A stretch of DNA of 21,966 bases from Candidatus Latescibacterota bacterium (GTDB lineage: Bacteria; Latescibacterota; UBA2968; UBA8231): positions 8,266-30,231 of the forward strand of contig JAGWBY010000049.1 in the NCBI GenBank assembly GCA_021295675.1, given 5' to 3'. The notes beneath the pieces were generated by a model that searched no databases, was not told where the DNA came from, and saw only the letters and a program-made list of their open reading frames with translations. Position 1 is the first letter of the stretch; each line of letters opens with the position of its first letter. A program made the translations under genes and the position numbers. This document shows, piece after piece, positions 14,761-19,495 of this stretch.

Positions 14761-15663
14761 ATGTTGTACAGAGCATTTGGCCGAACGGGCTGGCAGGTCT
14801 CGGCCATCGGTTTGGGAACCTGGAACATCGGCAACCAATGGGGGCCTATCGACGAGGCCACCGCATGGGACACCGTGCGCACGGCCTTTGACTGCGGCGT
14901 CAATCTCTTCGACGCAGCCGAGTCCTACGGTACGCCCAATGGGCTGTCTGAGGAGCGCTTGGGGAGCGCCTTAGCCGGCATCCGGCACCAAGTTTTTGTC
15001 GTCAGCAAAATCGGCAATTGGGGAGCGCGCACCGGGCAGGGCGTGCCCAAAACCACGGTCGATATGATCCTGCACCGGCTGCGTACCGACTGGCACGACG
15101 TGCTGCTGTGCCACGAAGGCAACATCGAGGATCCGTCGATCTACCTAGATGCCTTTGCCGCACTCGTCGAGGAAGGACGGCTGCGGGCCTTTGGCATTTC
15201 GACCGATAGCCTAGAGGTACTCCAGCGCTTCAACGCCCGAGGCGACTGCTCGGTGGTGGAGATAGACTATTCGCTGGTCAACCTCCAGGCCGAAGCCGAG
15301 CTTTTGCCCTATTGCCAAGAGCACGGCATTGCCGTACTGGTGAGGGGGCCGCTGGCCAAGGGGCTTTTGTCTGGCCGTTACACCAAGGAGTCTGTTTTCA
15401 CCGACGAAATACGGCAGTCCTTCAACGCCGGCGCGGCGCAACGCGGCGCATTCGAGGCCAAGCTAGCGCAAGTCGAGCGCCTCGCCGAGGTCGTCACGCC
15501 CGGAGAGGGCATGGTGGAAAAAGCCCTCCAGTACGTCATTTCCCATCCAGCCGCGCCGGTGGCCATCCCCGGTGCCAAATCAGCGGCCCAAGCCCGCGCC
15601 AATGCCGCAGCCGGCGCGCAACTTTTATCCGCCGACGAAATGGAAAAGTTGCGGCGAATATGA
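14761..15663 (+). CDS. Aldo/keto reductase
   Basis: This 300-residue member of the aldo/keto reductase superfamily, of the larger general-stress type, opens LYRAFGRTGWQVSAIGLGTW. The catalytic tetrad is visible: Asp51 and Tyr56 in LFDAAESYG, Lys83 in FVVSKIG, and His118 in VLLCHEG. It uses NADP(H) to interconvert carbonyls and alcohols; the substrate is unknown. The ATG at 14761 follows AAAGGAG. It differs from the minus-strand reductase at 10261-11154 in sequence and length. The NHL-repeat gene follows after 46 nt and then the redoxin, all on the same strand, suggesting one transcription unit. Confidence 0.9.
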   Translation: MLYRAFGRTGWQVSAIGLGTWNIGNQWGPIDEATAWDTVRTAFDCGVNLFDAAESYGTPNGLSEERLGSALAGIRHQVFVVSKIGNWGARTGQGVPKTTVDMILHRLRTDWHDVLLCHEGNIEDPSIYLDAFAALVEEGRLRAFGISTDSLEVLQRFNARGDCSVVEIDYSLVNLQAEAELLPYCQEHGIAVLVRGPLAKGLLSGRYTKESVFTDEIRQSFNAGAAQRGAFEAKLAQVERLAEVVTPGEGMVEKALQYVISHPAAPVAIPGAKSAAQARANAAAGAQLLSADEMEKLRRI

Positions 15664-15709
15664 ATTATCGACGCAAAAGTACGTTTACTATCGCCAAGAG
15701 GAGAATCCC

Positions 15710-16546
15710 ATGACCTTAGTAGGCAGCGGCGCATTCACCTATGCAGTGCAGCAGGACTGGTTCGAGTTGCCGGAAGGCTGGAGTTTTGGCTGGGTTCCGG
15801 CCGTGGCCTGCGATTCCGCAGATCGGGTCTATGTGTACAGCCGCAGCGAGCATCCCATGATCGTCTTCGACCGCGAGGGACGCTTTGTCGCCTCGTGGGG
15901 CGATGAGGTGCTCAAGGACGCCCACGGCATCTTTATCGACGAGCGCGACCAAATCTGGTGCGTCGAACGCGAAACCCACTGCGTGCGCCAGTTCACCCGC
16001 GACGGCGAGCTGCTGATGACCTTGGGAACGCCAGACCAAGAGGGTGCAGAGGGCCAGCCCTTCCGGTTGCCTACCGACTTGGCGCTCGACGCCGACGGCT
16101 ATATCTACGTGTCCGACGGCTACGGCAACACCTGCATCCACAAGTAAACGTGGGGCCGTCCGGGCACTGGCCCAGGGGAATTCGATCTGCCCCACTGCGT
16201 GCGCGTGGATCAGCGCGGGCGGCTGATGGTAGCCGACCGCGCCAACAACCGCATCCAGTTCTTCGACCTCGACGGCAACTACCTAGAGGAATGGGGCGGC
16301 TTTCACCATCCCGATACGATCTTCCTCGACGGAGATACAGTCTATGTCGCGGAACTCGACCAGCGGGTAAGCATTCTCAACCTCGACGGCGAATGGCTCG
16401 CTCAGTGGGGATCGGGCGAGCGCATTGACGCGCCGGGAGAATTCCTCGGCTGCCCCCACGGCATCTGGATGGATTCCCGCGGCGACCTCTACGTGGGGGA
16501 AGTGCAAACCGACCACCGCATCCAGAAGTTCGTGCGGCAAACCTAA
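15710..16546 (+). pseudogene. NHL-repeat beta-propeller protein with in-frame stop
   Basis: This is an NHL/peptidyl-amidating-lyase-like propeller. ATG 15710 follows AGAGGAG. Repeats are recognisable as FDREGRFVASWG, FTRDGELLMTLG, then RLPTDLALDADGYIYVSD, FDLDGNYLEEWG and NLDGEWLAQWG, with GxxxVAD and GNT signatures between them. At 16145-16147 a TAA interrupts the same frame, right after CIHK. Downstream the same frame continues as TWGRPGTGPGEFDLPHCV to TAA 16544-16546. The expected strand between HK and TW (about nine residues, like FSPDGELLR) is missing, so an in-frame deletion created the stop at its joint. No signal peptide is seen. The function is not known. Confidence 0.82.
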
Positions 16547-16557
16547 GGAGGTTTACT

Positions 16558-17409
16558 ATGAGAAAATCTTTAGTCAGTTTGGCAGCTTTAGCGGTGTTAG
16601 GAACCTCAACCATAGACGCCCAAGTGCCACGAGTAGGCGATCCGGCTCCCGATTTTCTTTTAGACCGGGTCGATGGCGGCCAAGCCGCTCTGAGCGACTT
16701 TGAGGGCCAAGTCGTACTGATTTTCTTTTTGGGTTATAGCTGACCGGCCTGTCTCTCGCGTGCCGAGAGCTTTGAAGAACTGTGGCAGGACTTTGCCGCC
16801 GAGGCCGACGAGCGCTTTGTCGCCCTAGGGGCGGATGTGTGGGATGGCACCGCGGAACAGGTGCACACCCGCTGGCGCTTAGGCAAGGGCGTGACCATGC
16901 CCCTCTTGCTGAACGCCAGCCAAATGGCGAGCGATTACGGGCAAACCTATCAGACTTTTGCCATCATCGACCACGAGGGCCTCATCCGCTTCAAGACCAC
17001 TTCCCTGATACCCATAGAAGAACTCCGCGACGAAGTACTGCTGGCACTAGCCGACATACCTCCCATTGAGGAGGTAGTGGAGGAACCAGTGGAAACGGCG
17101 GTGGAAACGTCTGATCAGGCGTCCGTGCCCCAAGCCTTTTCGCTAGCGCAGAACGCGCCCAATCCGTTCAACAGCAACACGGTGATCCGCTTCGCGCTAC
17201 CGCAGCCGAGCCAAGTCGAGTTGGCGATCTACAACCTGCTCGGTCAGCCAGTGGCCGTGCTCGTCCAAAGACCTAGCGAAGCCGGGACATTTTCCGTGCG
17301 CTGGGATGGCCGCGACCAAACGGGACAGGCGGTGACCAGCGGAGTGTACCTCTACCAACTGCGAGCCGGAGACTACACCGAAGTCCGCAAGCTGCTGCTG
17401 CTTAGGTAG
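16558..17409 (+). CDS. Secreted redoxin, predicted selenoprotein (Sec62), with type IX sorting tail
   Basis: Read through the TGA at 16741-16743, this is a 283-residue protein. ATG 16558 follows AGGAGG. It has a signal peptide (SLVSLAALAVLG, cleavage about DA-Q), then the AhpC/TSA-Redoxin domain: RVGDPAPDFLLD, then VVLIFFLGYS-U-PAC, where Sec62 and Cys65 form a U-x-x-C motif at the place of the thioredoxin-fold active site. The frame stays open for 221 codons after the TGA and keeps family sequence (FVALGADVWDGT, TFAIIDHEGLIRFKT). The C-terminal 85 or so residues form a FlgD-like/type IX sorting domain (LAQNAPNPFNSNTVIRF, YNLLGQ, SGVYLYQLRAG). The TGA is followed by a SECIS-like hairpin. No selA-D genes lie in the window. 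Confidence 0.8.
16751..16770 (+). promoter_or_regulatory. Predicted bacterial SECIS hairpin
   Basis: Beginning 7 nt after the TGA, G16751 can pair with C16770 across a bulged U16752, then CTCTCG (16753-16758) pairs perfectly with CGAGAG (16764-16769) around a CGUGC loop. The loop starts 15 nt after the UGA and contains GU. A bulged U in the stem and GU in the loop are features of the E. coli fdhF SECIS bound by SelB. The fold was done by hand. Confidence 0.65.
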
Positions 17410-17441: not shown

Positions 17442-18965
17442 TCAGAAGAAGCGGTTGAGCAGCCGGACTTCGACGCCCTTAAACCCTAGCACCTCATAGC
17501 AGATACCGGCCGTGCAGGCTAGCCCTGAGCGGCGCTGGCCGGCAAAAACATTGAGGATATGGCCCTCGCCAATGTCAGCACCAATGTTGAGGCCCCGCCA
17601 CCAAGTGATGCCAGAGGGATCGGCCCCGGTTTCCAATTCGTCGGAGGTGCGCTGAATCTGCACGGCGGCGGAGAGGCCGGGAGCGCGGTGGATCGCTAAG
17701 GCATAGTAGTGATTGGTGTAGGGAAGCGCTAGGTCGCCGAACCGCCGATCGACGTCTTGAAATTGCGCGTCGAACTCAAAGGCGTAGGACCCGTCTGGCA
17801 ACCACTCCCAGTGCGTGCCCAAGAGGCGGCTCTTGTCGTCGAGGAGAATCTGATTGTGACTGAAGTCGGCAAAAAGCTGCACATCGGCGCGTTGGCCCAA
17901 GGGCGAATCCATCTGCACAAAGAATTCGCGCAGGACATTGTCGTCGGCTGCTCCCGAATCGCGGCGGCGCGTGGCACGAGTCGCATTAGCAGTGAGGGTC
18001 TGGCCGCTAGGTAGAACGTAACTCAGTTCGGCTTGGTAGCCCTGCTCGTCATCGGCGAGCACATCGTGCGTGATGCGGTTGAGAAGATAGGCCGAGTGTT
18101 CGCGGATCAAGGGCGGAGGATTGTTGATGTGTTCGAGAGCAAAGTCTTCGTAGTCTTTGTATTCCAAGCTCAACCCCCACGGCCCGGACGCCAAAGTAGC
18201 CGCCAGATACAGCGCACGCCCCAAATCGCGGTCGAGCGAAAAGAAGCGATCGAACGCCACATCGCGCTGGGCGTACTCACCCTGGAGATCGGCATACACT
18301 CCGGTGAGACCAAGACGGGCCAGCAGGGGCGTAAGCCGCCAGCGGGCATTGAAGGCCGCGGCCGTTTCTTGCCGCCTGCCGGCTGGGTAGCGGATGGCAC
18401 TAACACCAACGTCGAAATGCAGGTGCGGCTTGAGTTGGAGCGAGCCAGCGTGGAGCACGTCTGGGCGCCGCTCAACCCCCTCCAATCCGGGCGGCAGATT
18501 GCTGTTGATCGGCGCACCGCGCAACAGCAGCACTTCGGCCCGCTTGGCGCGGTAGCGCATCTGAACGCCGTCGAGATCGCGCACGATCTGGTAGCGACGG
18601 CGGCTGCCCCGCGACTCGGTGACGACGCCGGGCAACTCAAAGGCGTGGAGCAGCAAGCCGCTGCCGACGATGGTATAGAAATTGCCAACCGTGGCTTCAA
18701 AGCCACTCCGGCGATAGGAAGCAGAGCGCTGGAGGAATTGGCCGTAGTTGCGATTAGTTGCGCTAGCACCAAAAGTCTCGCCGCGGACCCCGACTTGGAA
18801 ATCGGCGATTGCATAGTCGAGACTGAACTGGTGATAAAGCGTCCGCAAGTCGCTGGGCTGCGCACCGGGCAAATTGCCGACTTGACCTTCGGTCAGGGCC
18901 GAAAGACGCAACTCGGCTTGGAGGGGAGCGGCTAGCAGCAGTACAATTGCGGGAACAAAGCGCAT
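17442..18965 (-). CDS. Outer-membrane beta-barrel protein, DUF6029-like
   Basis: This 507-residue protein starts at ATG 18965 with a signal peptide (VPAIVLLLAAPLQA, then ELRLS). A longer open frame reaching 19067 would overlap the divergent gene and is not used. The mature part is rich in alternating amphipathic strands (e.g. DFQVGVRGETFG, QFLQRSASYRRSG, YAFEFDAQF, HYYALAIHR) and ends in Phe-Phe, as outer-membrane barrels do. It resembles the DUF6029 group from Bacteroidota and related phyla; this is from memory and is moderately sure. It is divergent from a TlpA-like thioredoxin with only 35 nt between starts, so they may share a promoter region. The function is unknown. Confidence 0.72.
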   Translation of the reverse strand: MRFVPAIVLLLAAPLQAELRLSALTEGQVGNLPGAQPSDLRTLYHQFSLDYAIADFQVGVRGETFGASATNRNYGQFLQRSASYRRSGFEATVGNFYTIVGSGLLLHAFELPGVVTESRGSRRRYQIVRDLDGVQMRYRAKRAEVLLLRGAPINSNLPPGLEGVERRPDVLHAGSLQLKPHLHFDVGVSAIRYPAGRRQETAAAFNARWRLTPLLARLGLTGVYADLQGEYAQRDVAFDRFFSLDRDLGRALYLAATLASGPWGLSLEYKDYEDFALEHINNPPPLIREHSAYLLNRITHDVLADDEQGYQAELSYVLPSGQTLTANATRATRRRDSGAADDNVLREFFVQMDSPLGQRADVQLFADFSHNQILLDDKSRLLGTHWEWLPDGSYAFEFDAQFQDVDRRFGDLALPYTNHYYALAIHRAPGLSAAVQIQRTSDELETGADPSGITWWRGLNIGADIGEGHILNVFAGQRRSGLACTAGICYEVLGFKGVEVRLLNRFF

Positions 18966-19000
18966 GGCTTGGTCCTTATAGAGAAAAACGGAGTCCCAAA

Positions 19001-19495
19001 ATGAAACCAATTTTCGCATTAGCAACCTGCTTGCTGCTCGTCGCCTCGGCTCGCGCCGAAAAGGCACCGCAGCTCGTGTTGGAAAACCTCGACGGCTCGA
19101 CTTTTTCGCTAGCGGAGGCGCTCAAAAAAGGGCCGGTAGTATTCGACTTCTGGGCGACTTGGTGCAAGCCCTGTATCAAAAGCCTGCCCAAGCTCCAATC
19201 CCTCTCCGAAGAATACGCCAAGCGCGGCGTCCAGGTGCTGACGATCAACATTGACGGCCCCAGAAACCTGCCCAAGGTGCGGCCTTTTATGCAGCGCCAC
19301 AAGCTCAAATTGCCGGTTCTGCTCGACAAGACCAACGAGGTGCTCAAGCAGTTCCACCTAGCGGGCGTCCCGGCGACCCTGATTATTGCAGCCGACGGGA
19401 CAGTGTGGTACAAGCACCAAGGGTACCGGCCCGGAGACGAGAAAAAGCTCAAGGCCAAACTAGACGAATTGCTTGGCCCTTTAGCGGACCAATAA
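19001..19495 (+). CDS. TlpA/ResA-like thiol-disulfide oxidoreductase
   Basis: This 164-residue thioredoxin-fold protein has an N-terminal signal sequence (PIFALATCLLLVASARA, cleavage about ARA-E). The active site is WATWCKPC with Cys55 and Cys58 (W-C-x-x-C), followed by the usual helix, and the cis-proline loop is in AGVPATLII. It should work outside the cytoplasm, reducing or exchanging disulfides, for example in cytochrome c maturation or on outer-membrane proteins. It is divergent from the DUF6029-like gene, which might be a client; that is inference. The length is normal for the family. The ATG at 19001 follows GGAG. Confidence 0.92.
   Translation: MKPIFALATCLLLVASARAEKAPQLVLENLDGSTFSLAEALKKGPVVFDFWATWCKPCIKSLPKLQSLSEEYAKRGVQVLTINIDGPRNLPKVRPFMQRHKLKLPVLLDKTNEVLKQFHLAGVPATLIIAADGTVWYKHQGYRPGDEKKLKAKLDELLGPLADQ

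Follow-up and report, generated by a model that had tools for sequence, protein, structure and literature searches.

Does the TGA at positions 16741-16743 of the window, the whole 21,966-nucleotide stretch of DNA analysed here, terminate a short secreted peptide, or does it specify selenocysteine (Sec) at the active site of a redoxin that is carried out of the cytoplasm? The gene in question, on the forward strand at 16558..17409, encodes 283 residues, including U62, and ends in TAG; the TGA is the only one in frame between the ATG at 16558 and this stop, and the frame stays open past it, in agreement with the preliminary description of the locus. A ribosome-binding site read from the sequence (AGGAGG, 16546..16551, forward strand) precedes the ATG, and a similar or identical purine-rich stretch lies ahead of the start in most of the relatives shown. 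The product opens with a signal-peptide-like leader of approximately residues 1-21 (MRKSLVSLAALAVLGTSTIDA, 16558..16620), recognized by a simple rule comprising charge, hydropathy and an AxA-like site, and continues, on the same strand, with an AhpC-TSA/Redoxin domain (residues 26-146, 16633..16995), an acidic linker (17053..17148) that is modelled with low confidence and is very different in length among relatives, and a predicted type IX (Por) sorting domain with an FlgD/Ig-like beta sandwich (residues 201-280, 17158..17397). Elsewhere in the window a CRISPR-like array at 776-2520 contains 28 copies, at an exact spacing of 61 nt, of a repeat around TGTTCCCCGCAGGCGCGGGGATGAACCG, which we take to resemble type I-E repeats. 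ARAGORN found no tRNA in the window, and an Rfam scan of it returned nothing at the gathering score.

The redoxin domain exceeds the curated cut-offs of two Pfam families, AhpC-TSA (5e-15, residues 26-145, 56 bits against a cut-off of 26) and Redoxin (5.6e-12, residues 26-146, 46.1 bits against 26.6), and adopts a thioredoxin fold in an AlphaFold2 model built from 30 sequences (mean pLDDT 81.7, pTM 0.56), in which a loose linker joins it to a beta-sandwich tail. On the redoxin part of the proteins examined, every NCBIfam model shown stays under its cut-off (for the relative L118, among the best 25 of 59 matches). The Pfam domain extends across the TGA which, as had been proposed, occupies the redox-active position (16741..16743, residue 62) and is followed by the partner Cys65 of a U-x-x-C motif (TGT, 16750..16752), an assignment that draws on both the sequence and its homologues.

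Conservation of the TGA was evident among the relatives. Within the Latescibacterota-type phylum 33 of 64 genomes contain a family match, and 50 of the 51 matches in these genomes have exactly one in-frame TGA, the match in G031 having a TAA. Fifty of the 51 matches were compared at column 62, the G036 match being left out, and TGA occupied it in all but one, the G031 gene (L134), where a TGT is directly preceded by a stop. L134, the only gene of this phylum without the TGA, was considered and rejected as a clean Cys control, as the preceding stop indicates that it may be broken. When repeated loci were removed, together with L140, which is identical to another gene from -60 to +120, 49 of 50 distinct genes, including that of the window, carried TGA at column 62 and the remaining gene TGT; judged from these sequences, such recurrence at one column is beyond chance. 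Four full-length relatives in other assemblies, displaying 88-95% identity, also kept the TGA. In the window clade (28 pairs) the 38 codons that precede the TGA gave a pN/pS of 0.16 and the 17 that follow it 0.34, values that point to purifying selection both before and after the codon. In the protein databases, where 1916 homologues were found among 7997 scored candidates and the best 120 of the 1916 were examined, Cys occupies positions 62 and 65 in all 11 full-length (redoxin-bearing) homologues among the matches listed. The gene thus combines an in-frame UGA at the redox site with Cys in its homologues, the pattern by which selenoproteins are recognized. The first 75 matches (P0002-P0076) comprise 163-258 amino acids and contain tail domains only; the 11 that were inspected all begin downstream of the TGA and, by their length and coverage, the others probably also start after the Sec codon. 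Three of the 75 are named 'T9SS type A sorting domain-containing protein', a name that hides the enzyme.

The family extends to a second phylum, which was reached through L005 (SelB over cut-off) and explored by a domain-profile search of 39 genomes. All 39 contained some match, mostly to more remote thioredoxin-like proteins; the eight top matches, which are close relatives, comprise six genes with TGA and two with TGC. On a tree of 73 domains, in which 20 of 70 inner branches were open, the distribution of Sec requires three changes of state. Further thioredoxin-like genes of the second phylum (L186, L188, L191, L196 and L199) also have a TGA at the active site, in URQC and UxxC motifs unlike those of the window's family.

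The preliminary description had also drawn attention to a hairpin just downstream of the TGA, with a perfect 6-bp stem and a GU-containing loop, and this is borne out by the candidate SECIS element CUCUCG-CGUGC-CGAGAG (16753..16769, forward strand), in which the stem pairs 16753-16758 with 16764-16769 around the loop CGUGC at 16759-16763. The published bSECIS model, as set out in PMC13188914, describes a loop of 3-9 nt with G among its first two bases, a stem of 4-16 bp, a distance of 16-37 nt from the UGA and an energy of at most -7.5. The hairpin of the window, which lies 12-28 nt from the U of UGA, agrees with the model in its loop (5 nt, G second) and stem (6 bp) and narrowly misses it in spacing, the loop beginning 15 nt after the UGA, and in energy, which for the hairpin alone is -6.4 kcal/mol; an equally good hairpin arose in 4% of 200 synonymous-codon shuffles. 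The fold energy of the entire 51-nt segment is ordinary (-11.8, energy z 0.06). Across 49 genes the mean 51-nt z was -1.01, compared to -0.18 for 529 other windows. Since the window's hairpin did not stand out by z-score, the analysis turned to local hairpins and to pair counts. A strict filter (stem of at least 5 bp, a G at loop position 1 or 2, energy of -7.5, spacing of 15 nt or more) was passed by 29 of 49 genes, where synonymous shuffles predict 3.4, and by 78 of 1563 other in-frame windows; in the window clade seven of eight genes failed the filter and only L109 passed.

Pair counts, which are favoured by the derivation of the hairpin registers from the same sequences' own folds, put the share of pair cells that form at 92% in the half of the family that includes the window (15 distinct segments), compared with 23-51% when the register is slid, and at 71%, compared with 36-51%, in the other half (20 segments). 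Pair 15-25 in the window's half is U-A in four segments and G-C in 11, a swap that requires changes in two amino acids. A hairpin of the type GGUCCCA-GGN-UGGGACC is common to the six TGA genes of the second phylum, with 43 of 48 pair cells formed and three pairs displaying double changes (slid versions, 14-23), whereas the two Cys genes form eight of 16 (slid, 1-7). On this comparative evidence the hairpin is covarying among relatives in both groups; that of the window itself is a marginal example. The fdhF element of Escherichia coli has a similarly placed GGUC loop, as does L124.

The genes selA, selB and selD and a tRNA-Sec were looked for, and are present, in sister genomes. SelB is over its cut-off in three of the four genomes nearest to the window; the fourth, G003, contains a part of SelB only (positions 175-579, 123.8 bits, under cut-off) that starts at base 12 of its contig. 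All four have a tRNA-Sec over the gathering score, with the anticodon TCA (ARAGORN). Of the 64 genomes of the first phylum, 44 have SelB over cut-off, 45 SelA and 47 SelD. SelD is over cut-off in every one of the 33 genomes that contain a family match, and no such match occurs in the 17 genomes outside the SelD set (Fisher p 1.9e-7, a test that ignores kinship and in which many SelD-less genomes are small), and 14 genomes have SelD with no family match. In 40 of the 47 genomes the SelD gene itself contains one inner in-frame TGA, from which SelD of the first phylum seems to be a selenoprotein in its own right. It is also observed that selA lies 4.8-9.3 kb from sprA in 13 genomes (G001, G003, G004, G044-G047, G049-G051, G057, G059 and G060), which were chosen because both matches share one contig; in G042 the two genes are far apart.

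It could be argued that the TGA is a plain stop, which ends a short secreted peptide and is followed by a separate downstream gene, and the databases do hold the downstream part alone, as described above for the first 75 matches. The redoxin domain, however, spans the TGA, the frame is kept with the codon at the active-site column in 49 of the 50 distinct genes, selection is purifying on both sides, and the downstream part on its own would be a sorting tail that has no leader. An error for TGC or TGT, or reassignment of TGA throughout the genome to a standard amino acid, would both accord with the Cys found at this column in homologues. Against an error is the presence of TGA in many separate assemblies, while reassignment conflicts with the SelB, SprA and PorU frames of sister genomes, which have no inner stop, and with several other family genes that end in TGA. 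A plain stop, a sequence error and a genome-wide code change are all rejected, each being exceedingly improbable. The TGA at 16741-16743 is most readily interpreted as an in-frame Sec codon, at which Sec would be incorporated.

If the product is a selenoprotein, where would it function? The pairing of a type IX tail with a signal peptide in this protein, the unusual feature that first singled it out, holds by the leader rule and by NCBIfam TIGR04183 (41.6 bits against a cut-off of 23), but not by Pfam Por_Secre_tail, which stays under its cut-off (23.1 against 27); Pfam FlgD_ig is over cut-off. The protein thus possesses a C-terminal sorting domain by TIGR04183 and an N-terminal signal peptide by the simple rule, two of the features expected of a type IX substrate. 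A basic, hydrophobic leader with an AxA-like site was found by the simple rule, with starts chosen near the expected place, in all 49 TGA genes. Among the 30 sequences of alignment A2, 26 match TIGR04183 (E 0.001), which is over cut-off in all six Sec genes of the second phylum (32.9-45.4), with no such match in the two Cys genes of that phylum; L108, the frame of which is broken after a run of N, was left out for the tail. Type IX genes were also sought. SprA is over cut-off in the four nearest genomes and in 61 of the 64 overall, and in ten selected sister genomes PorU is over cut-off in seven and PorV in all ten; no PorU was found in G003 at E 1e-30, and in G042 and G043 PorU is partial and under cut-off. 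The presence of SprA, PorU and PorV, together with the sorting domain, makes type IX export of the Sec redoxin plausible.

Other termini occur in the family. By eye, the tail is replaced in the genes of G042 and G043 by HYDIN-like repeats with a dockerin-like end, and in L124, L128, L130 and L150, from other genomes, Pfam identifies HYDIN-Ig in all four and Dockerin_1 in two, one of these over cut-off. A second Sec redoxin branch (L121-L154 but not L134-L145; 26 distinct genes in the tree, often as tandem pairs) has HYDIN-like Ig repeats with dockerin-like or EF-hand-like ends and is without the tail. In L118 (16-1932) a hydrolase domain of the serine beta-lactamase-like kind stands between the Sec redoxin and an FlgD/type IX-like tail. 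The linker between redoxin and tail in L107, L109, L114 and L115 is a low-complexity repeat, of the ETEETAETEE or AADAQA kinds, that is very different in length, as if expanding and shrinking.

An alternative is that the protein is a genuine exported Sec redoxin in which the tail is an ordinary FlgD-type Ig domain, such that the enzyme stays in the periplasm or at the membrane. In favour of this are the Pfam scores, and FlgD is the best fold match of the tail modelled alone (3e-4) and the best match of a profile of 15 tails against the sequences of solved structures (3e-7); gingipain and other type IX tails appear in the profile search only at 0.08-0.7, and three relatives from the same phylum (L116, L117 and L119) have no tail while others have another C-terminus. 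The TIGR04183 score, however, argues for a sorting domain, as do PorU as the fifth profile match (7e-4), the presence of PorZ, PorU and the NucA type IX substrate complex (3e-3 to 1e-2) after FlgD among the fold matches, and the SprA, PorU and PorV of the sister genomes. We consider a periplasmic or membrane location to be improbable. The reaction catalysed is also contested, as the enzyme could be a Sec peroxiredoxin-like peroxidase and not a thiol-disulfide oxidoreductase. In keeping with a peroxidase, Pfam ranks AhpC-TSA first, the fold matches include peroxiredoxins and Bcp and, on visual inspection, the window product has a residue other than Pro where thioredoxins have their cis-proline. 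The best solved matches of the redoxin model, however, are a Bacteroides disulfide isomerase and ResA, and the motif is UxxC, as opposed to the TxxU of the Sec peroxiredoxin described in PMC1088965. A peroxidase is unlikely, if a credible competitor; the UxxC motif and the ResA-like fold favour thiol-disulfide exchange.

A DUF6029 protein (17442..18974, reverse strand) adjoins the gene and is conserved there, and a TlpA-like thioredoxin with CxxC (19004..19495, forward strand), a possible electron donor, follows; both are found beside the gene in all six contigs that extend sufficiently far (L001, L003, L004, L167, L168 and L169). In G051 (L170) the gene is absent from its place between the NHL gene and DUF6029, and a Sec redoxin displaying 43% identity lies on the same strand after the TlpA gene, its match starting 80 nt past that of TlpA. 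This adjacency and the conserved neighbourhood make electron flow from the TlpA-like protein to the Sec redoxin our leading guess, and the product is likely to be an extracytoplasmic thiol oxidoreductase beside the TlpA-like thioredoxin. Just upstream, at 15572-16546, is an NHL beta-propeller gene interrupted by a TAA at 16145; it is without 24 nt that are found at that place in all eight relatives.

On the preferred reading, UGA 16741 would be decoded as Sec by SelB and tRNA-Sec with the help of the downstream hairpin, and the signal peptide would take the product out of the cytoplasm, where it would fold as a ResA/TlpA-type thioredoxin domain with the redox pair U62-P-A-C65. The C-terminal domain would hand the protein to the type IX system (SprA, PorU and PorV) for delivery to the cell surface or beyond, and thiol/disulfide exchange would most likely proceed by way of a selenenylsulfide between U62 and C65, with the TlpA-like thioredoxin next door as a possible source of electrons. 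The TGA, the frame, the domains, their conservation and the machinery of the sister genomes are read directly from sequence, and from these we infer incorporation, export route, location, reaction and partner. We assign this explanation as a whole a probability of approximately 0.7, a value set by the tail fold, which favours FlgD.

Sec is both costly and reactive. If the assignment is correct, a Sec enzyme bearing a type IX tail would expose a selenol at the cell surface, which raises the questions of how the selenol survives there, what reduces it and whether such a protein is carried by the type IX pathway. More broadly, and at somewhat less than even odds, at least two phyla may perform selenium-based thiol redox chemistry outside the cell through an expanded family of exported Sec redoxins, with type IX tails in some branches, HYDIN-Ig/dockerin-like modules in another, an occasional serine hydrolase fusion and feeding by a TlpA-like partner. 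The family would have been overlooked because gene calling starts after the Sec codon, an annotation blind spot in which gene databases cut these proteins at that codon.

How does this protein compare with known systems? Sec-containing redoxins are established, as the preliminary description acknowledged. PMC13188914 (2026) reports 119 Sec families or subfamilies, including Redoxin (PF08534, UxxC; its Table 1) and a Prx-like thiol:disulfide oxidoreductase (PF00578, UxxC), and the GOS survey in PMC2398784 describes two UxxC families, Prx-like 1 and Prx-like 3, together with Sec-containing secreted serine proteases and fusions of the thioredoxin fold; the window product shares the redoxin fold and U-x-x-C motif with each of these redoxin and Prx-like families. 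In the descriptions given by these papers the Sec redoxin and Prx-like proteins have no type IX tail, HYDIN or dockerin modules or signal peptide, and it is by description that the present family is set apart. Words that begin with 'secret', 'periplasm' or 'latesci' occur zero times in the main text of PMC13188914, and 'extracellular' once, in a reference. The product is below the cut-off of the NCBIfam TUGYCR (seleno)protein model, NF053656 (18.9 against 100 bits), and a scan of viral contigs with the domain profile found no relative. Selenoproteins outside the cytoplasm also have precedents, although with different folds, in the predicted trypsin-like and MucD-like secreted proteases of PMC2398784 and, by name, in the TonB-dependent receptor, MtrB/PioB-type barrel and ExtKL cytochrome of PMC13188914; in what these sources say of them no type IX tail is mentioned. 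A literature search at the level of titles and the starts of abstracts, with preprints and most subscription journals outside its scope, found no description of Sec and a type IX tail on one protein. Sec redoxins are known, and the exported, tail-bearing family appears to be new as far as the literature searched reaches.

With proteins of the ResA/TlpA type the product shares its fold (TM normalised by target 0.87-0.90 to the solved ResA structures 1su9 and 1st9) and a redox pair two residues apart. It differs from ResA in having Sec-Cys where ResA has Cys-Cys, in a sequence identity of 22-23% and in a score of 34 on the NCBIfam ResA model, far under the cut-off of 170. The Cys-type redoxins with a type IX tail (P0077-P0083, P0089, P0106 and others), from sources that include Balneola and Calditrichae, have the same architecture and 31-40% identity, with Cys where the window product has Sec; Sec and Cys members side by side offer a test of what Sec buys.
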